This document shows positions 32,344 to 44,477 of a stretch of 64,000 nucleotides of DNA, piece by piece. The stretch is from Massilia violaceinigra (GTDB lineage Bacteria > Pseudomonadota > Gammaproteobacteria > Burkholderiales > Burkholderiaceae_D). The notes under the pieces were generated by a model. That model ran no database searches. It was given only the letters and a program-made list of their open reading frames with translations, and was not told the origin of the DNA. The position numbers were made by a program, and so were the translations under genes. The DNA is taken from positions 3,100,001 through 3,164,000 of the forward strand of contig NZ_CP024608.1 in the NCBI RefSeq assembly GCF_002752675.1, in the 5' to 3' direction. Positions within the stretch are counted from its first letter, which is position 1. Every line of letters starts with the position of its first letter.

Positions 32344-34683
32344 CTAGTGGCCGGCGAGCGCTTCGGCGCCGGCCATCAGGGACTCGACCGCGCGCTCGAA
32401 CACGGGCGCGTGTTCCATCGTGCGCAAGGTTTCGGACTGCATCGCCGCCAGCAGGGCATCGCGGGTGAAGGTGGACGGCGCCGCCTGGCCCTTGACCGAG
32501 AACAGATACAGGCTGCCGCGCGGGCTGACCGCATTCAGGCGCGCCGGCACGTAGCGCCCATCCACGGCAATCTCGAAGCCGGCGCCCGGCAGCGCCATGC
32601 CCAGCCATTCCTGTTCGTCGGCGGCGCGCGCGGCGCTCTTGCCGCCGTCGGTGTACAGCTCGGCGCGAATGCCGCGCTGCTCCAGCGCCGCTTCGAGCTG
32701 GGCGTGGCCGATGCTGACCGCATCCTGGCCCGCTTCGCACACACCGCCGAAAGCGGCGAAGTGCGCGCGCAGCTGGTCCAGATCCATGGCCTTTGCCGAG
32801 GCCGGCTGGCGGTTGCCCAGCACATCCATGTGGACCATCACCAACTGGTCGAGCGCGGCCTTGGAGACGGTCTCTCCCATGCCGATCGCGGCCAATCCTT
32901 CGCGTACCCGTTTGACCAGGCTGGGCAGCATGCGGACCATCTGGGCACGCTCCTCCATCGTATTTTTTTCCTGCGCGCTCCATACCAGCTCGGCCAGCAT
33001 CGCCTGGCTGGCGGGCGCGTCGCTGCCCGGATGGACCAGGACGCGGCTCCACATATCGGTGACGAAATTGCCGATGCGCGGATCGACATCGAGCGGATCG
33101 AGCAGGGCGCCCAGGGCCGTGGCGGTGTCGCTGTGGCGGGCGCTGCTTGCTTCGACCGCGCCGAGGGCGTCGATGCAGCGCGCCAGGCCCACGTCGCCGC
33201 GCGGCAACAGGGTCGAGACGAACTGGTCGAGCCTGCGCTGGCCGTCGGCAAAGGTCGTCATGTCCGTGTCAAAGCGCTCCAGCACGCCGTCCAGGACCGT
33301 GTCGATTTCGTCTTCCAGCGCCGGGTAGCACGCCATGTCGGGCGTGATGCCGGTGGCGACGGTGCCGATCCGGTCGAGCAGGCGGCGCGCCGGATGCTGG
33401 GCGTCGTGCAGCATCGATGGGTCGAGCATGGCGGCGCGCAAAAACGGCACATGCAGGCGGCCAAGCTGCTGGCGTACGCCTTCGGGCAATTGCTCGTCGT
33501 GCACGATGGATTCGAACAGCAGACTCACCAGGTCGATGGTAACCCGGTCCGGCTCGCTGCTGGCGGCATCGGCCAGCTGGGCGCGCAGGTCGAGCGGAGC
33601 TGGCGCGGGCGCACCCCTGGCAGTGGCGGCCGGCTTTGCCTGTTGCATTTGTTTTAAGCGCGCATCGAGGGCGGTGCCGGGCTGGCCGTCCGCAGCAGGG
33701 GCCGGGGCGTCGGCATGGCGCGGCGGGCGCGCTGCCTTCGGCTGGTTAAAGACATTCCAGACCATTTCCTGCAAATCGGGCGCGTGCGGCTGCGCCGGGG
33801 CGCCGGCCGCCACGTTGCGCTGTTGCTGCATCATGCGTTGTAATTCCGGCAGTATGCGCGACTGCTTGGGCGGTGCCGCCTGCCCCTGCTGCGCCGGCTG
33901 GCTGTCCGCGCGTCCACCCGCCGCCACGCGGCCGATGAGCTGCTCGGCGGCCTTTTGCCAGGCAAGCCGCTCACGCTGGGCGCGCGTGAGCGCGCTCGGC
34001 CGGGCGGTCAGCTTGCTGGAAATCCCGCGCGATTTGAATACTTCTTCTATTGCAACGTAGTATCCTTGCAGGCAATGCTCCATCGCGACCGACAGTGTAT
34101 CGAACAGCGCTTTGGATTGGGCCTCGTCCCTGACCGCTTCGCGCAGGGCTTCGTGCAGCGAACGGGCCAGCAAATACGGGCGGAATGGGTTTTCGCGTTC
34201 GCGCACCTCGCCGTCGCCGTGTAGCTGGGCGATCATCATGTTCAGGCGCCCGAGGCTGGGCTGGTCGGCATCGCGCAGGCGCATCACCAGCCGGTCGATC
34301 TCGATTTGCCGCGTCACGACGTCATCCTCGATGAGGGTCAGGTTGTCCGCACTGATCTCGTCCAGGCTGGCGCGCGTGTCCATGTACATGGTGTGCATGG
34401 CGCGTTCGAGGTAATTGGCAAAGTGGTGTTGCATGCGCGCTAACAGAAAGTTGCCTTGCTCGCGCAAGGCCTGGCGTGCATTCATCATCAGGCGCTCGTC
34501 GGGCCGGGCGGCGCCTTTCAGGGCCTTGTCCAGGATCGCCTCGGCTTCGGCCAGGGTTTTGGTGGCAAGGACGTGAAAACCCGACAGTGCGGGTTGTTTC
34601 GCAAGCTGGAACACTCTTTTTGGTATTTGCATGGCGTTTTTTGTGCTCAAATGGATGAGCTGCTCCGGGTTTCTGAAAGCCAT
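32344..34683 (-). CDS. DUF1631 family protein
   Basis: A 779-residue cytoplasmic protein matching the DUF1631 family of Beta/Gammaproteobacteria. N-terminal landmarks are ALREQGNFLLARMQHHFANY and RQIEIDRLVMRLRDADQPSL; the C-terminal region includes SARAADEQEWLGMALPGAGF and SLYLFSVKGQAAPSTFTRDA. A Pro/Ala/Gln-rich linker occupies about 270-370. No catalytic motif is visible and the role is not established. The gene is convergent with the metallopeptidase, eight bases apart. Confidence 0.9.
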   Translation of the reverse strand: MAFRNPEQLIHLSTKNAMQIPKRVFQLAKQPALSGFHVLATKTLAEAEAILDKALKGAARPDERLMMNARQALREQGNFLLARMQHHFANYLERAMHTMYMDTRASLDEISADNLTLIEDDVVTRQIEIDRLVMRLRDADQPSLGRLNMMIAQLHGDGEVRERENPFRPYLLARSLHEALREAVRDEAQSKALFDTLSVAMEHCLQGYYVAIEEVFKSRGISSKLTARPSALTRAQRERLAWQKAAEQLIGRVAAGGRADSQPAQQGQAAPPKQSRILPELQRMMQQQRNVAAGAPAQPHAPDLQEMVWNVFNQPKAARPPRHADAPAPAADGQPGTALDARLKQMQQAKPAATARGAPAPAPLDLRAQLADAASSEPDRVTIDLVSLLFESIVHDEQLPEGVRQQLGRLHVPFLRAAMLDPSMLHDAQHPARRLLDRIGTVATGITPDMACYPALEDEIDTVLDGVLERFDTDMTTFADGQRRLDQFVSTLLPRGDVGLARCIDALGAVEASSARHSDTATALGALLDPLDVDPRIGNFVTDMWSRVLVHPGSDAPASQAMLAELVWSAQEKNTMEERAQMVRMLPSLVKRVREGLAAIGMGETVSKAALDQLVMVHMDVLGNRQPASAKAMDLDQLRAHFAAFGGVCEAGQDAVSIGHAQLEAALEQRGIRAELYTDGGKSAARAADEQEWLGMALPGAGFEIAVDGRYVPARLNAVSPRGSLYLFSVKGQAAPSTFTRDALLAAMQSETLRTMEHAPVFERAVESLMAGAEALAGH

Positions 34684-37249: not shown

Positions 37250-39478
37250 TCACTCCGGCCCCAGCACCCGGAACACCTCATCGGGCGTCGTCAAGCCGTC
37301 GCGCACCTTGATGAACGCGTCGTCGCGCAAGGTCATGAATCCCTGGGTGATAGCGTACCGCGTGATTTCCGTGATGGCGACCTGGGACGCGATCAGGTGC
37401 CGCATGTGCGTGTCGGGAGCGAGCACTTCATACAGGCCGAGGCGGCCCTTGTAACCGCTGCCGTGGCAAACTTCGCATCCCGCGCCGTAAAAGGCTTGGA
37501 ACGGCTGGGCGGCGAAATTGCCGCCGAGGCGCTGCAGCAAGTCCGGCTCGGCCGGCGCAGCTGCGCGGCAGCGTTCGCACACCTTGCGCACCAGGCGCTG
37601 CGCAATGACCGCTTCAAGCGCCGTGGCGATCACGAACGGCTTCAAACCGAGGTCGAACAGGCGCGAAATGGTGGCGATCGCCGAATTGGTGTGCAGGGTC
37701 GAATACACCTGGTGGCCGGTCAGCGCCGCGTGAAATGCCACCTCGGCTGTTTCAAAATCGCGGATCTCGCCGATCAGCAAGACGTCCGGATCCTGGCGCA
37801 AGATGGCGCGCAGCACCAGGGGGAAGGTCAGGCCGATTTTTTCGCGCACCACCACTTGCCCCGCCGAGTCGAGGTAGTATTCGACCGGGTCCTCGATCGT
37901 GATGTAGTTTTTTTCCGACGTTGCGCTGCTCTGGAGCAGGCTGTAGAGCGTGGTTGTCTTGCCGCTGCCGGTCGGGCCCGTCGCCAGGACGATGCCCTGC
38001 GGCTTGTCGCTGGCGTTGCGCACCTTGGCCAGGTCCATCGGATTGAAACCGATGCCGTCGAGACGCAGCACCGCCGCGTTCCGGTCGAGAATGCGCATGA
38101 CGATTTTTTCGCCGTTGATCGTGGGCAGCGTCGAGATCCGCAGGTCGACCACCCGCTGCGGGGTCTTGACCGCCAGGCGTCCGTCCTGCGGCCGCCTGCG
38201 CTCGGAAATATCCATCTCGCCCATGATCTTGATGCGCGAGACGATCGACTGGTGCATATTGTGCGGAATCTGCATCTTGTCGATCAGCACGCCATCAACC
38301 CGCAAGCGCACCATCACGTTCTTGGTGCGCGGCTGGATGTGGATGTCGGACGCTCCCAGGTTGATCGCCTCGAGCAGGATCGCGTTGACCAGCCGGATCG
38401 CGGGCGGCTCGTCCGTGCCGCGCAACAGCTCTTCGAGCGACTGCCCCAAGCCGTCGTCCTCGATGACGATTTCCACCCCTTCGTACGGGTCGTTCGAGCC
38501 GAACGCCGCTTCGAGGTCGGTCAGGTCGGCGCGCCCGGTGCCGTAGACGGTGGCAATCTTGGCCAGGATGGACGACATCGGTGCGAGCACGGGCGCAATT
38601 TCCAGGCCGGTCACGAAACGCAAGTCGTGCAGCAAGCCTTCGTCCAGCGGGTCGGCCATCGCGACCGTCAGGCGCTTGTCGTCGATGCGCAGGGGAATGA
38701 TCAAGTGGCGCTGGCACAAGGCGGCCGGCACCAGCGCGGCCACCGCCACGTCGATCGCCATTTCGTCGACGCTCACCTGCTGGATCATCAGCTCGGCAGC
38801 CAGCAAGTCGTGCACGACCTTTTCCTGCACCCAGCCGCGCTCGACGATTTCCTTCAACACCGCCTGCTGCTTCTGGGCCTGCTGCTGGATGCGGATCAGC
38901 TCCTGCACTTGCCCCAGATTGAGTTTGCCGTGGCGATGCAGCACGGTGGCCAGCCGGCTGCGGTTGCCTGCCGAAAACTTGGCCATCTGCTCGATTTCCT
39001 GCGACTTGCGCGCGTTTTCCTGGAGCAGGACTTTGTTGCTGCGGTTGAGTTCCTGGCGTTCGAGCGCCAGCGCAACCGTCACGCGCAGGTCGTCATCGTT
39101 CCACGGCTTGAGGATGAACTTGTAGACCGCGCCGGTCTTCACCGCCCCGACCACCGCGTTGACGTCGGCATGGCCGGTGAGCATGATGCGGATCATGTCC
39201 GGTTCGATCTGGCGCGCCTGGCGCAGCAATTCACCGCCGTCCATGCCCGGCATCATGAAATCGCTGATGATCAGGTGGAAGGTGTCGGCCTTGAGCAGCG
39301 CCAGCGCCTCGCGCGGATTGCCGCTGGTAACGATCTCGTAATTTTCCTGGCGAAATACCCGGCGCAAGGCCGACAGCACGTTCGGCTCGTCGTCGACCAG
39401 CAAGATGCGGTAGGCGCGCACCGGCGCCGCACTGCTGTCGCCCTCGGCGGCGCCGGTGAACAAATGCCCGTAGCTCAT
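37250..39478 (-). CDS. Receiver domain fused to GspE/PilB-type assembly ATPase
   Basis: A 742-residue fusion. Residues 20-145 are a CheY-like receiver (acidic pair D29-D30, phospho-acceptor D73 in IISDFMMPGMDG, Lys in FILKPWNDDD). A helical MshEN/GspE-N-like region follows (about 170-330). The hexameric secretion ATPase comes next, with Walker A GPTGSGKTTTLYS, Walker B region LLIGEIRD, His box TLHTNSA and two CxxC pairs (CERC, CEVC) of the zinc subdomain. It would power pilus or secretion-pseudopilus assembly under phosphorylation control. The start overlaps the kinase stop by 4 bp (ATGA). Confidence 0.92.
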   Translation of the reverse strand: MSYGHLFTGAAEGDSSAAPVRAYRILLVDDEPNVLSALRRVFRQENYEIVTSGNPREALALLKADTFHLIISDFMMPGMDGGELLRQARQIEPDMIRIMLTGHADVNAVVGAVKTGAVYKFILKPWNDDDLRVTVALALERQELNRSNKVLLQENARKSQEIEQMAKFSAGNRSRLATVLHRHGKLNLGQVQELIRIQQQAQKQQAVLKEIVERGWVQEKVVHDLLAAELMIQQVSVDEMAIDVAVAALVPAALCQRHLIIPLRIDDKRLTVAMADPLDEGLLHDLRFVTGLEIAPVLAPMSSILAKIATVYGTGRADLTDLEAAFGSNDPYEGVEIVIEDDGLGQSLEELLRGTDEPPAIRLVNAILLEAINLGASDIHIQPRTKNVMVRLRVDGVLIDKMQIPHNMHQSIVSRIKIMGEMDISERRRPQDGRLAVKTPQRVVDLRISTLPTINGEKIVMRILDRNAAVLRLDGIGFNPMDLAKVRNASDKPQGIVLATGPTGSGKTTTLYSLLQSSATSEKNYITIEDPVEYYLDSAGQVVVREKIGLTFPLVLRAILRQDPDVLLIGEIRDFETAEVAFHAALTGHQVYSTLHTNSAIATISRLFDLGLKPFVIATALEAVIAQRLVRKVCERCRAAAPAEPDLLQRLGGNFAAQPFQAFYGAGCEVCHGSGYKGRLGLYEVLAPDTHMRHLIASQVAITEITRYAITQGFMTLRDDAFIKVRDGLTTPDEVFRVLGPE

Positions 39479-40692
39479 GCGCGTTGGTCCGCCTGCAGCG
39501 GTAGGTGCACATCGAAGGTGCTGCCGCCGCCCGGCGTCGAGCGCACCGCGATATGCCCGCTGTGGGCGCGCACCACGTCCGCGGCCACCGTTAAGCCGAG
39601 CCCTATCCCGCCGCCCACGCCATGGGTGGTGAAGAAGGGGTCGAAGATGCGGGGAAGCACCGCCTCCTCGATCCCGCAGCCCTGGTCGCACACCGAGACC
39701 AGCAGCTCGCCGTCGCGGGCGGCGCTGGCGAGCCGGATCACGCCCTGCCGCTCGCGCATGGCCGTGCGCGCGTTGAGCAGCAAGGCCAGCACCACCCGGG
39801 TCAGGCCGTCGCGGTCGCAACTGACTTGCGGCAGCAAGCCGAGCTGCGTGTCGAGACGCACCCCGGCCGGCAGTTCGCCCAGCATCCTGACGGCCGCGCG
39901 CAACGCATCGTTCGGATCGATGGCAGCAAACTGGGCCGGCTCGCAATGCGCGTACGCCTTCAAGTCCGCGATGATGCGCGACACCCGGTCGGCGCCGGCG
40001 ATCGATTCGTCCAGCAAGTTGGGAAAATCGGCGACGATATAGGCCAGCTGTTTCGCCTCGGCCGACGCCAGGGGCTGGGCCGCGATGGCCTGTCCAAGTT
40101 CGGCGACGTAGTCCTTGGCGGTGCTCAGATTGCTCCTGATGAAACCGATCGGGTTGTTGATCTCGTGCGCCATGCCGGCGGCCAGGCTACCGATCGAGGC
40201 CATCTTCTCGGCCTGGTACATGCGACGCTGGCTCTGCTCGATCAGGCCCACCTGTTCGTGCACGCGCGCCTCGAGCTGCGCGCTCAGGGCGCGGTAGCGC
40301 GCCTCGGATTCGCCCAGCGCGGCGTGCTTGTCCATGAGCTCGCGGTGATCCGCAATCACCGTCTCCAGATGCAGGTCGGCGGCCATCCGGTAACGGTTCG
40401 ATGCGCCCAGCAGCAGTTCGATCCATTTGCCCGCCGGCGCCAGCCAGGCTTGCCGGTCGGCCGGCGCCGACAAGGTGCCGACGACCTCGATGTCGACCAC
40501 CAGCGCGACGGAGCAGACGGGGCCGTCGATCGCCAGCGCGCCTGCGTGCACCAGCCCGTCGTCGGCGCCGTCGATGCGCCAGGCACGGCCGACGCTGTGC
40601 CCCATCGCCGTTTCCAGCGCGGTCGTCGGGACGTTGCGCATCATCTCGCGCAAGCTGACCTGGCGGTCGAAGGCGGGTAGGGTTTCGTTCAC
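39475..40692 (-). CDS. Soluble sensor histidine kinase
   Basis: A 405-residue kinase with no membrane helix. An N-terminal region (1-125) resembles no named sensor. A coiled coil (about 128-165) leads to the dimerisation/phosphoacceptor helix with H176 in AAGMAHEINNPIGFI. The HATPase_c domain follows: N box LALLLNARTAM, G1 VCDQGCGIEEA, F box FDPFFTT, G2 GGIGLGLT. The H-E-I-N-N-P phosphoacceptor motif is the NtrB-like class. It overlaps the GTPase gene and the receiver-ATPase gene by 4 bp each, so it most likely phosphorylates D73 of that fusion. Confidence 0.93.
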   Translation of the reverse strand: MNETLPAFDRQVSLREMMRNVPTTALETAMGHSVGRAWRIDGADDGLVHAGALAIDGPVCSVALVVDIEVVGTLSAPADRQAWLAPAGKWIELLLGASNRYRMAADLHLETVIADHRELMDKHAALGESEARYRALSAQLEARVHEQVGLIEQSQRRMYQAEKMASIGSLAAGMAHEINNPIGFIRSNLSTAKDYVAELGQAIAAQPLASAEAKQLAYIVADFPNLLDESIAGADRVSRIIADLKAYAHCEPAQFAAIDPNDALRAAVRMLGELPAGVRLDTQLGLLPQVSCDRDGLTRVVLALLLNARTAMRERQGVIRLASAARDGELLVSVCDQGCGIEEAVLPRIFDPFFTTHGVGGGIGLGLTVAADVVRAHSGHIAVRSTPGGGSTFDVHLPLQADQRA

Positions 40693-41342
40693 CGCGCCGC
40701 TCCTCCGGCCGCTTCGATGAACGCGTCTTGCGTCAAGCCATGCTCGACCAGCAGCGCGAACTGGACGTCGAGCCGCACATAGACCAGCTTGAGCAAGGCC
40801 GAAAACGTTTCCCTTACCCCATCGCCCTGCAGCGCGCTGGCCAGCAGCACCGGCCAGGGCGCCTTGCTCCAGCGTTGCGCGATCTCTTCCTCGGACAAAA
40901 TATCGGGCAAGTCGCGCTTGTTGTACTGCACCACCAGCGGAAAGCTGGCCACATCGATCCCGACGGTCGCGGTATTGGCGATCAGGTTGTCGAACGATGC
41001 GCCATTATTGACTGCCTGGTGACGCTGGGAGTCGGCCACGAACACGGCGCCGTCCGCACGCGAGAGCACCGCCTTGCGCGTGCCATTGTGCGCAACCTGT
41101 CCGGGAACGGTAAACAGCTTGAATTTGACGAGCAGGCCGGATGGCGCGGTGAAACCGAAAGGCAGCAAGTCGAAAAACAAGGTTCGGTCGCCTTCGGTTT
41201 CGAGCAGCATCATGTCGCCCACCAGGTCGGCCGTCAGCAAATCGTGCAGGCGCGTCAGATTGCTCGTCTTGCCGGACATCGCGGGGCCGTAGTAGACCAG
41301 TTTCACGGTCAGGCGTTGCGCTCGCTCGTCCAATTCCGCCAT
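40689..41342 (-). CDS. MglA-like small GTPase
   Basis: A 217-residue Ras-superfamily GTPase resembling MglA, the bacterial polarity switch. The P-loop is GPAMSGKTSNL, switch II region FTVPGQVAHNGTRKAVL, then DGAVFVADS, and the base motif NKRDLPDIL. In MglA-containing bacteria such GTPases position type IV pilus and gliding machinery. ATG 41342 (MAELDERAQRLTVKLVYYGP) is preferred; ATG 41360 adds six residues. The frame stays open upstream, but that sequence is unlike the family. First gene of the three-gene operon with the kinase and receiver-ATPase. Confidence 0.92.
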   Translation of the reverse strand: MAELDERAQRLTVKLVYYGPAMSGKTSNLTRLHDLLTADLVGDMMLLETEGDRTLFFDLLPFGFTAPSGLLVKFKLFTVPGQVAHNGTRKAVLSRADGAVFVADSQRHQAVNNGASFDNLIANTATVGIDVASFPLVVQYNKRDLPDILSEEEIAQRWSKAPWPVLLASALQGDGVRETFSALLKLVYVRLDVQFALLVEHGLTQDAFIEAAGGAAR

Positions 41343-41559: not shown

Positions 41560-41635
41560 TGGTAGGCCGTGCGGGATTCGAACCTGCGACCAACGGATTA
41601 AAAGTCCGCTGCTCTACCAGCTGAGCTAACGACCC
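41560..41635 (-). tRNA. tRNA-Lys (TTT), copy 1
   Basis: A 76-nt tRNA with encoded CCA. The minus strand starts GGGTCGTTAGCTCAG. The anticodon loop CTTTTAA carries TTT. The T-arm is GGTTCGAATCC. The acceptor GGGTCGT pairs with ACGGCCT less one mismatch. Identical to the copy at 41704. Confidence 0.97.
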
Positions 41636-41703
41636 AAGGTAAAACGATCAAAAAAAGCAGTGGCGATCGCTCGCAACTGCTTCGTTTGCTTACTGCGAAT
41701 TCG

Positions 41704-41779
41704 TGGTAGGCCGTGCGGGATTCGAACCTGCGACCAACGGATTAAAAGTCCGCTGCTCTACCAGCTGAGCTAACGACCC
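41704..41779 (-). tRNA. tRNA-Lys (TTT), copy 2
   Basis: Identical in all 76 positions to the gene at 41560-41635, including the encoded CCA, and 68 bp upstream of it on the same strand. The two are probably processed from one transcript that ends at the terminator at 41518-41550. No integrase or attachment duplication is seen beside them. Confidence 0.97.
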
Positions 41780-41856: not shown

Positions 41857-43668
41857 TCAGGTCAGCTTGGCCGTCACTTTGAGCACTTCGTCGGCCGTGG
41901 TCGTGCCCTCGATAATCTTGTACGCGCCCGCGATGCGCAGCGGCTTCATGCCGTCGTTCACACTCTGCTGGCGCAGGGCGGCCAGGTCGGTCTGCTTCCC
42001 GATCATGTTGGTAAAGCCTTCGGTGACCGTCAGCAGTTCGTACAGGCCGGTCCGGCCGCGGAAACCCGTCTGGCGGCATTCCGGGCAACCGATCGGGCGG
42101 TACACGACCGCCGGCTTGGGAATGTTCCAGGAGCCGCCGATGCTGTCCCACACGTCGTCGTTGAGTTCCCCGCCCGGCGCCTTGCACAGCACGCACAGAG
42201 TACGCACCAGGCGCTGCGCCATGATGCCGATCAGCGTCGCTTCCAGCAGGTAATGCGGCACGCCCAGTTCCAGCAGCCGCATCACGGCCGAGGGCGCGTC
42301 GTTGGTGTGCAGGGTCGACAGCACCAGGTGGCCGGTCAGGGCCGCCTGGATCGCCATTTCGGCCGTGGCCAGGTCGCGGATCTCGCCCACCATGATGATG
42401 TCGGGATCTTGCCGCATCAGCGCCCGCACGCCATCGGAAAAGCCGAGCTCGATGCCGGACTGCACCTGCATCTGGTTGAACGAGGGTTCGACCATCTCGA
42501 TCGGGTCTTCCACCGTGCACACATTCACTTCGGTGGTGGCAAGCGCCTTGAGCGTGGTGTACAGGGTCGTGGTCTTGCCCGAGCCGGTCGGCCCGGTCAC
42601 GAGGATGATGCCGTGCGGCCGCGTGGTCAGTCCATCCCAGCGCGCCGCGTCGTCCGCCGGAAAGCCCAGTTCGGGCAGGGTCTTGACCACCACTTCCGGA
42701 TCGAAAATCCGCATCACCAGCTTTTCGCCGAAGGCGGTCGGCATGGTCGACAGGCGCAGCTCGACTTCCTGGCCGCCGCTGGTGCGGGTCTTGATGCGTC
42801 CGTCCTGCGGGCGGCGCTTTTCGATCACGTCCATGCGCCCGAGCAGCTTGATGCGCGCCGTCATGGCGATCATCACCACCGCCGGCACCTGGTACACCTG
42901 GTGCAGCACGCCATCGATCCGGAAACGCACCGAGGCAATCTCGCGCTTGGGTTCCAGGTGGATGTCGGAGGCGCGCTGCTCGAAGGCGTACTGCCACAGC
43001 CAGTCGACGATGTTGACCACGTGCTGGTCGTTGGCGTCGAGCTTGTTCGACTTGCCCAGTTCAACCAGTTGCTCGAAGTTGTTGCGCAGCGCCAGATCCT
43101 GGCCCTTGGACTTGTTGGCGTCCTTGATCGATTTGGCCAGGCTGAAGAACTGCGAAATGTACTGCGAGATTTCGAGGGGGTTGGCCATCACCAGCTCGAT
43201 CTTGCGGCGCGAGACTTTCATGATCTCGGCTTCCCACTCGACCGAGAATGGTTCGGCGGTGGCCACCACCAGCTTGGTGCCGCTCAGTTCGACCGGCAGG
43301 ATGTTAAAGCGCGCCGCGTAGCTCGCCGTCATCACGTCGGCCACCTTGGTGAAGTCGATTTTCAGCGGGTCGATGCGGATGAAGGGCAGCCGCACCTTGC
43401 CTGCCGCCCATTCGGTCAGCACGTCGAGCGTGAGCAGGTTGTGCGGGGGCAGGGCGGAGACCAGCTTGCACTGGGCCACGGCCGACAGCGGATGCATGGA
43501 GCCGACCGCCGTTTTCAGGATGCCCTGGGCCTGGGCATAATTGGCCTTGACGTTGGGCTTTTCCACGATGCCATCGGACAGCAGCCACGAAAAGATGGCT
43601 TGCAGGTCGAGCGACTTGGGGGTGCTGCGTTTGGGCGCCGCGCTGGTTTCCGTATGTTCTGCGTTCAA
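41857..43668 (-). CDS. GspE/PilB-type assembly ATPase
   Basis: A 603-residue hexameric secretion/pilus ATPase without a receiver domain. Landmarks are the N-terminal region KSLDLQAIFSWLLSDGIVEK, arginine-finger segment RASDIHLEPKREIASVRFRI, Walker A GPTGSGKTTTLYT, Walker B region IIMVGEIRD, TLHTNDA, and CxxC pairs CVLC and CPEC. The start is taken as TTG 43668, eight bases after GGGAG and 26 bp past the upstream stop; longer starts would overlap the upstream gene. The two tRNA-Lys genes separate it from the operon with the receiver-ATPase. Confidence 0.88.
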   Translation of the reverse strand: MNAEHTETSAAPKRSTPKSLDLQAIFSWLLSDGIVEKPNVKANYAQAQGILKTAVGSMHPLSAVAQCKLVSALPPHNLLTLDVLTEWAAGKVRLPFIRIDPLKIDFTKVADVMTASYAARFNILPVELSGTKLVVATAEPFSVEWEAEIMKVSRRKIELVMANPLEISQYISQFFSLAKSIKDANKSKGQDLALRNNFEQLVELGKSNKLDANDQHVVNIVDWLWQYAFEQRASDIHLEPKREIASVRFRIDGVLHQVYQVPAVVMIAMTARIKLLGRMDVIEKRRPQDGRIKTRTSGGQEVELRLSTMPTAFGEKLVMRIFDPEVVVKTLPELGFPADDAARWDGLTTRPHGIILVTGPTGSGKTTTLYTTLKALATTEVNVCTVEDPIEMVEPSFNQMQVQSGIELGFSDGVRALMRQDPDIIMVGEIRDLATAEMAIQAALTGHLVLSTLHTNDAPSAVMRLLELGVPHYLLEATLIGIMAQRLVRTLCVLCKAPGGELNDDVWDSIGGSWNIPKPAVVYRPIGCPECRQTGFRGRTGLYELLTVTEGFTNMIGKQTDLAALRQQSVNDGMKPLRIAGAYKIIEGTTTADEVLKVTAKLT

Positions 43669-43694
43669 TCCGTTTTCTCCCTTGGGCACTGCAT

Positions 43695-44477
43695 TTACTT
43701 GGCCGACAGCATGCCCTTGACCCAGGATTTGGCCGGCAATTTGGTCGCCGCCACGATCTGCACGGCACGCGCGGCGAGCGCTTCCGGATCGATGACGGGG
43801 CGTTGTTTGAAGCACAAGGCGACGACATTGCCGTCGTGGACTTCAGGCAGGCAGATCACGTGCCCAAAGGCGAATTTCATCGCCTTGATATTGCGCGCAA
43901 AGCTGGGATGGTCGCCGAACAGGTTGACCGTCATCATGCCGCCGTCGCGCAGGCAAGCGTTGCAGGCCTGGTAGAACTCGGGCGTGTCGAGCACCGGGCC
44001 GCGCGCGGTGGCGTCGTACAGGTCGCATTGCAGCACGTCGAAGGCGCCTTCGTTGGCGGGATCGTTGACGAAGTCGAGCGCATCCATTTCCAGCACGCGC
44101 AGGCGCTCGTCCTCGGGCGGCATCTTGAACATCGAGGCGCAGATCGCGATGACGGAGGGATTGAGTTCGACCGCCGTCACCACTGCCTCGGGGAAGGTGC
44201 GGTAGCAGTATTTGGTCAAGGTGGCGGTGCCCAGGCCGAGCTGGGCGATGGCGCGCGGGGCGTCGATGAACAGCATCCAGGCCATCATCTGCTGCGCATA
44301 TTCGAGCTCGGGCCAGTCGGGCTTGCGGATGCGCATGGCGCCCTGGACCCATTCGGTGCCGAAGTGCAGGTAACGCACGCCATCCTGCTCGGATAAGGTC
44401 ACGGGCGCAAATTTGGGCTTACGGGCTGGACGGCGCGATGACTCGGCCTGTTCGATGGATTTTCTTTTGATGAGCAT
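43695..44477 (-). CDS. Spermidine-synthase-like methyltransferase-fold protein
   Basis: A 260-residue protein of the spermine/spermidine synthase fold. The cofactor site is AIAQLGLGTATLTKYCYRTF, and acidic motifs include TAVELNPSVIAI, EMDALDFV and LQCDLYDATARGP. It has a basic N-terminal tail (MLIKRKSIEQAESSRRPARK). Such proteins in Burkholderiales are often annotated 'spermidine synthase' without proof that they transfer aminopropyl groups. ATG 44477 is chosen because the tail starts there. It is 26 bp upstream of the GspE/PilB gene. Confidence 0.85.
   Translation of the reverse strand: MLIKRKSIEQAESSRRPARKPKFAPVTLSEQDGVRYLHFGTEWVQGAMRIRKPDWPELEYAQQMMAWMLFIDAPRAIAQLGLGTATLTKYCYRTFPEAVVTAVELNPSVIAICASMFKMPPEDERLRVLEMDALDFVNDPANEGAFDVLQCDLYDATARGPVLDTPEFYQACNACLRDGGMMTVNLFGDHPSFARNIKAMKFAFGHVICLPEVHDGNVVALCFKQRPVIDPEALAARAVQIVAATKLPAKSWVKGMLSAK

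Follow-up and report, generated by a model that had tools for sequence, protein, structure and literature searches.

A three-gene operon encodes a GTPase, a histidine kinase, and a receiver-ATPase

The window analyzed here is a 64,000-nucleotide stretch of the Massilia violaceinigra genome (7.53 Mb; contig NZ_CP024608.1, positions 3,100,001 to 3,164,000). An operon on its minus strand, running from 41342 to 37250, encodes an MglA-like GTPase, a soluble histidine kinase, and a PilB-type assembly ATPase with an N-terminal receiver domain, in that order (Table 1). An earlier note, made from the sequence alone, had placed these genes here and suggested a pilus or pseudopilus motor switched by phosphorylation and by a polarity GTPase. 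All three were found where it put them, with the kinase histidine H176 (AHEINNP) and the receiver aspartate D73 (ISDFMM) at the residues it named. Its description of the junctions as 4-bp ATGA overlaps holds for the length of both and for the sequence of the second; the first reads GTGA.

Table 1. Features of the operon and its upstream neighbors (window positions)
Feature	Position	Strand	Evidence or remark
MglA-like GTPase, 217 aa	40689..41342	-	G1 GPAMSGKT, R53, TVPGQ with Q82, NKRD; similarity to solved MglA structures
Soluble histidine kinase, 405 aa, GTG start, H176	39475..40692	-	HisKA + HATPase_c
Kinase N-terminal domain, residues 1-110	40363..40692	-	predicted helix-helix-four strands, then long helix
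Receiver-MshEN-PilB-type ATPase, 742 aa	37250..39478	-	domain matches, conservation
Receiver domain of ATPase, residues 25-135, phospho-acceptor D73	39074..39406	-	domain match and conservation
MshEN region of ATPase, residues 174-317, both cyclic di-GMP (c-di-GMP) motifs degenerate	38528..38959	-	
T2SSE motor domain, residues 356-737; Walker A from 501, Walker B from 570, two cysteine pairs	37268..38413	-	
TfpB-type extension ATPase, start codon uncertain	41857..43815	-	NF053534 861 bits, cut-off 850; neighbor, outside the conserved module
Two tRNA-Lys (ttt) genes	41560-41779		between TfpB and GTPase

The ATPase matched the receiver family PF00072 with 86.8 bits, MshEN (PF05157) with 76.3, and T2SSE (PF00437) with 418; the scan used a version of the protein with 4 additional N-terminal residues, and the receiver coordinates were shifted by 4. 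The kinase scored 27.5 bits for HisKA and 80.9 for HATPase_c. It had been described as membrane-free, and we agree: hydrophobicity over 19-residue windows peaks at 1.82, around residue 53, which is a β-strand in the predicted model. A scan for promoters and terminators gave three matches (one resembling a promoter, two resembling terminators); none lies on the strand of the operon, and they do not clearly exceed chance.

The closest named records by residues 1 to 240 of the ATPase, among the best 120 of 2749 matches, are from Massilia antarctica and Massilia frigida (95% identical); the receiver, MshEN, and T2SSE domains are all present in 119 of these 120. Comparison with M. frigida gave ratios of nonsynonymous to synonymous substitution (dN/dS) of 0.21 for the GTPase, 0.30 for the kinase, and 0.10 for the ATPase. 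Given these values of 0.10 to 0.30, together with family-wide conservation, the trio is not a chance assembly.

The three genes are conserved as a unit

A scan of genome contigs based on the GTPase returned 52 loci, of which 36 (L009-L043 and L060) have a GTPase at least 58% identical over the best segment. Besides the source locus, 30 loci have enough contig downstream for both further genes, and every one of them shows the GTPase followed by the kinase and the receiver-ATPase in the same order. Among the 36, the ATPase runs past the contig end at L019 and L024, and the kinase or ATPase frame is broken at L016, L024, and L038; the contigs of L029, L036, and L039 stop in or shortly past the kinase and those of L013 and L042 at the GTPase, and the GTPase of L060 is broken. 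The remaining 16 loci (L044-L059, GTPase identity 41 to 53%) gave no ATPase match, several of their contigs being short. Three pairs of loci (L010/L068, L060/L065, and L046/L064), whose contigs agree in length, were taken as the same genomes, and each was counted once.

Trio loci span beta- and gammaproteobacteria and Desulfobacterota, and cultured genera (Massilia, Noviherbaspirillum, Janthinobacterium, Methylobacillus, and Desulfatitalea) are represented too. Gaps are no longer than 20 bp at 30/31 GTPase-kinase junctions (L024 and L038 excluded) and at 23/29 kinase-ATPase junctions (L016 excluded), the excluded genes being broken or cut; the lengths are approximate, with gene starts picked by script. 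Protein distances are correlated among all three genes (r of 0.82 to 0.87 over 26 rows, L038 and L043 excluded), and none of 999 permutations in a Mantel test reached values as high.

Across 369 genomes of the class, a profile of the receiver and linker scored above 340 bits in 7, the source genome included, and the next best match reached 180. The ATPase adjoins a GTPase match in all 7. The GTPase itself matched with more than 100 bits in nine of the 369 genomes, and ten further genomes lie at 20 to 80 bits. Two of the nine, G184 and G484, have no module; their GTPase is partial or broken, and G484 has a short ATPase remnant behind it. The three scans of the class, that for PilM below included, scored no more than 8, 7, and 5 preliminary candidates in each genome, so weaker copies could escape, and the profile covers this type of receiver; fusions with an unrelated kind could exist. 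Within the family, the GTPase occurs in 4 of 116 genomes, and all 4 carry the trio. The module thus appears rare and patchy, and is apparently retained or lost as one unit. The conserved co-occurrence on which the earlier note had made its reading depend was found at every locus that could be scored and for all 7 receiver-ATPases detected in the class.

Separately, the GTPase is broken or partial and the module absent at L060/L065 and L046/L064, and a short ATPase piece follows the GTPase in L065. L047, L050, and L051 are contigs of metagenome-assembled genomes (MAGs) labeled Klebsiella pneumoniae; their MglA-like GTPases (42 to 45%) resemble those of deltaproteobacterial MAGs, and the contigs are probably mislabeled.

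In a tree of 16 receiver-ATPases, from Burkholderiales to Desulfobacterota, and 10 other ATPases of the source genome, the receiver-ATPases form one clade (100/99), which suggests a single, old fusion; the neighbors of the clade are not settled, and the branches are long. The trio is an old module.

Catalytic residues are retained in all three proteins, and the MshEN motifs are degenerate

The receiver residues D29, D30, D73, T101, and K124 are invariant in 42/42 aligned ATPases, as are the Walker A and Walker B motifs and the cysteine pairs of the motor. H176 is invariant in 30/30 aligned kinases (L016, L024, L029, and L039, broken or cut, were excluded). Both residues between which the earlier note envisaged phosphotransfer are kept in every protein aligned. 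The ATPase was also confirmed as PilB-like in sequence and fold, its nearest solved relatives being PilB proteins of type IVa pili. A predicted model was set aside as a guide to the arrangement of its domains (predicted template modeling score, 0.45). The receiver scores 172 bits, below the cut-off of 400, with the NosR family of receiver/HD-GYP regulators, and by this resemblance may be derived from a neighboring receiver/HD-GYP regulator. In the Desulfobacterota ATPases (L037 and L041), the C terminus is extended by a stretch with many CxxC pairs that, by eye, resembles a zinc ribbon.

Canonical c-di-GMP-binding MshEN domains carry two RLGxx... motifs, and changes at such positions in XpsE abolished binding (PMC5013675; here and below, statements on published work refer to parts of the articles cited). 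RLG is found in motif 1 of 2/41 receiver-ATPases and in motif 2 of 0/42. Geobacter PilB holds both, whereas the M. violaceinigra ATPase has RLA and AVL instead.

Residues 1 to 110 of the kinase are predicted with confidence as a compact domain (block-mean predicted local distance difference test scores of 87 to 95 for residues 11 to 110). Neither Pfam nor a sequence search of the PDB gave a convincing relative, and a structure comparison, which covered mainly residues 156 to 403, gave this domain no named fold. A candidate for a natural kinase-receiver fusion, P0112, was rejected, as a frameshifted run precedes the start of its receiver protein.

The GTPase matched solved MglA structures, which we take to be the Myxococcus proteins, with an E value of 4e-41, and Arf only weakly (28.9 bits). 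R53, Q82, and N141/K142/D144 are invariant in 35/35 sequences. The hallmarks of Group 1 MglA are an Arg beside the G2 Thr, TVPGQ in G3, and [NT]KxD in G4 (PMC4316618); R53 beside T54, TVPGQ, and N141-K142-D144 correspond to them. MglA proteins are usually, but not universally, coupled to the GTPase-activating protein (GAP) MglB (390 of 449 MglA-family members), and orphan MglA-type GTPases such as SofG exist (PMC4316618). None of the three genes of the operon is MglB-like. The source genome gave no match to Robl_LC7, the MglB family, and 23 of 33 other GTPase genomes, many of them MAGs of unstated completeness, gave no Robl_LC7 protein. This check and that for PilM below covered 33 loci, L013 and L042 being excluded; three of the loci (L029, L036, and L039) end before the ATPase.

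Pilus and signaling genes around the module

The earlier note held that nothing else of a pilus is adjacent. This proved incorrect: a TfpB-type ATPase lies 514 bp upstream of the GTPase, beyond two tRNA-Lys genes. About 4 kb separate the two in M. frigida (L009). TfpB was nevertheless rejected as a member of the module; within flanks of ∼7 kb, its N-terminal part has a match of at least 30% identity at L009 alone. Downstream of the operon, at 32344-34683 of the window, a DUF1631 protein (316 bits) is encoded.

Of this ATPase family, the source genome encodes 11 full-length members. Seven have a platform gene next to them; the other four, which include the receiver-ATPase and TfpB, have none. 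None of the 20 matches to the platform family T2SSF (PilC) lies near the operon at 3.137-3.144 Mb. Two more PilB-like ATPases with no platform gene nearby, sisters in the tree, were noted at 3.69-3.70 Mb (L070:1883-3709 and L070:9308-11677); the longer has ∼200 additional N-terminal residues with no Pfam match, GAF-like by eye. PilM, a marker of type IVa pili, scores above 200 bits in 33/34 GTPase genomes. The one genome below that score is a Geobacter MAG (L039), on whose contig the ATPase is not seen.

An HD-GYP gene was found at 21/30 module loci and an HDOD gene at 19/30, counted on either strand anywhere within flanks of ∼7 kb; the counts for kinases and short receivers (30/30) are uninformative, since both also match the module itself. 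At L026 and L010, the HD-GYP neighbor is a receiver-HD-GYP regulator. The order in Methylotenera (L026) is GGDEF-EAL-receiver, HDOD, GAF-kinase, receiver-HD-GYP, and short receiver, followed by the trio. In M. violaceinigra, genes for GGDEF-EAL-receiver, HDOD, kinase, receiver-HD-GYP, and short receiver proteins cluster apart from the trio at 6.857-6.872 Mb (L061), with domains confirmed for four of the five. The suggested lack of a separate response regulator thus applies to the operon alone, given these HD-GYP neighbors and the cluster at 6.86 Mb.

Discussion

As a tentative reading, we propose that the receiver-ATPase is an orphan extension motor, an alternative one that works on a shared type IVa pilus and responds to signals: the kinase of the operon would gate it, and the GTPase of the operon would place it. 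After autophosphorylation at H176, the soluble kinase would transfer its phosphoryl group to D73 in the receiver part of the PilB-type ATPase; the receiver with its helix and the MshEN region would then move and so switch the motor on or off. The place or time of engagement would be set by the MglA-like GTPase, in the way that MglA and SofG act on the pili of Myxococcus. Because no platform gene lies beside it, the motor is proposed to borrow a shared pilus machine; in Acinetobacter, TfpB does so alongside PilB. Compared with canonical MshEN ATPases, the receiver would replace c-di-GMP as the input. In this scheme we infer the phosphotransfer pair, the sign of control, the partner of the GTPase, the machine driven, and the loss of c-di-GMP input, as well as the switching of the motor by phosphorylation and GTPase. 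A stricter version, which we consider unlikely, is an AND gate, in which firing of the motor would need both phosphorylation of its receiver and retention at the machine by the GTPase in its GTP-bound form. The N-terminal domain of the kinase would stand in for MglB as the partner of the GTPase, either as GAP or as effector, and the kinase alone would then read the polarity switch and set the phosphorylation of the motor.

Several observations weigh against a gated motor for the type IVa pilus. The ATPase scores 546.8 bits with the PilB model TIGR02538 (cut-off 675.65) and 525.7 bits with the GspE model TIGR02533 (cut-off 630.25), so these models do not name the machine it drives, and any of the seven platform-ATPase pairs in the genome could be served by it. 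PilM is common in the class regardless (275/369 genomes, E value of 1e-30 or better), and its presence in GTPase genomes agrees only weakly with work on a shared pilus. Robl_LC7 proteins are present in 10/33 GTPase genomes, and 9/30 module loci have no HD-GYP gene in their flanks. Imperfect MshEN motifs may still bind c-di-GMP (PMC5013675). The nearly equal scores with the GspE and PilB models, the seven pairs, and the unplaced position of the clade among its paralogues would also suit a receiver-gated motor of another machine, whether type II secretion or an MSHA-like or other pseudopilus. With type IVa PilB proteins as the closest solved relatives and a strong PilM in all but one of the GTPase genomes, we think such an assignment improbable, though worth keeping in view.

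It is likewise doubtful that the ATPase is a signaling hub and not a motor, its hexamer informing the c-di-GMP/HDOD cluster about the state of the pilus or about a local signal, with receiver and GTPase tuning this report. The invariant Walker motifs and cysteine pairs speak against this, and so does a dN/dS that is the lowest of the three; the lack of a platform gene nearby and the frequent HD-GYP and HDOD neighbors speak for it, and PilB of Myxococcus is a signaling protein for exopolysaccharide (PMC5544727). We regard as very unlikely a third arrangement, in which kinase and receiver-ATPase cooperate alone and the GTPase, although co-transcribed with them, acts on a different target. The neighborhoods of Group 1 MglA proteins vary widely in general (PMC4316618), yet the GTPase accompanies the pair at 30/30 loci, GTPase and ATPase distances correlate with r of 0.85, and in the two class genomes that have a GTPase above 100 bits and no module it is partial or broken.

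Parts of the proposed pilus motor have counterparts in known systems. PilB and TfpB of type IVa pili share the MshEN and T2SSE domains with all catalytic motifs, and TfpB, the second motor on one pilus in Acinetobacter, likewise has no platform gene alongside and shares its genome with at least one other such ATPase (PMC8213720; PMC11656802). The receiver-ATPase differs in its fused N-terminal receiver and in having its own kinase and GTPase in the operon, and it scores below the curated cut-offs of both PilB and TfpB. In Xanthomonas, EmvR is an aspartate-phosphorylated receiver that controls the PilB motor, but it is a protein of its own with a single domain, its kinase is unlinked, and there is no GTPase (PMC11973254). 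In the control of PilB by FimX and PdeK-PdeR, the motor or its placement is likewise the target of two-component and c-di-GMP proteins; these are separate adaptors, without a GTPase, and the motor is unfused (PMC11656802). MglA and SofG of Myxococcus have Group 1 features, and SofG, for which no GAP is known, positions PilB and PilT; these GTPases, however, are not encoded with the motor and act via other partners (PMC4316618). Actinobacterial conservons combine a histidine kinase and an MglA-family GTPase in one operon, but with an MglB-type CvnB, CvnC, a Group 2 GTPase, and no motor ATPase (PMC4316618). MshEN does occur with receiver domains, as in Bd2402-type proteins, which hold both in a single chain; Bd2402 binds c-di-GMP, whereas the receiver-ATPase lacks the motifs, and no such protein with an added PilB or GspE motor is named in the parts of that article covered here (PMC5013675).

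We found no account of a receiver-PilB fusion or of a GTPase-kinase-ATPase operon in the portions of the literature searched, which did not include the supplementary tables of PMC5013675, and what was covered of PMC4316618 on Group 1 MglA mentions no motor fusion. The domains are already known; it is their conserved arrangement that is without a description in this literature. Most work on the spatial and temporal switching of pili concerns chains in which the adaptors are separate. In the present operon, three genes seem to combine a kinase, a phospho-switch, a motor, and a GTPase of the polarity type; this small system would make it possible to test both direct phospho-control of a pilus motor and the action of MglA in the absence of MglB. 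The module may be a case of a phospho-switch replacing c-di-GMP as the input of a motor, and the trio could be a compact way of switching pili.
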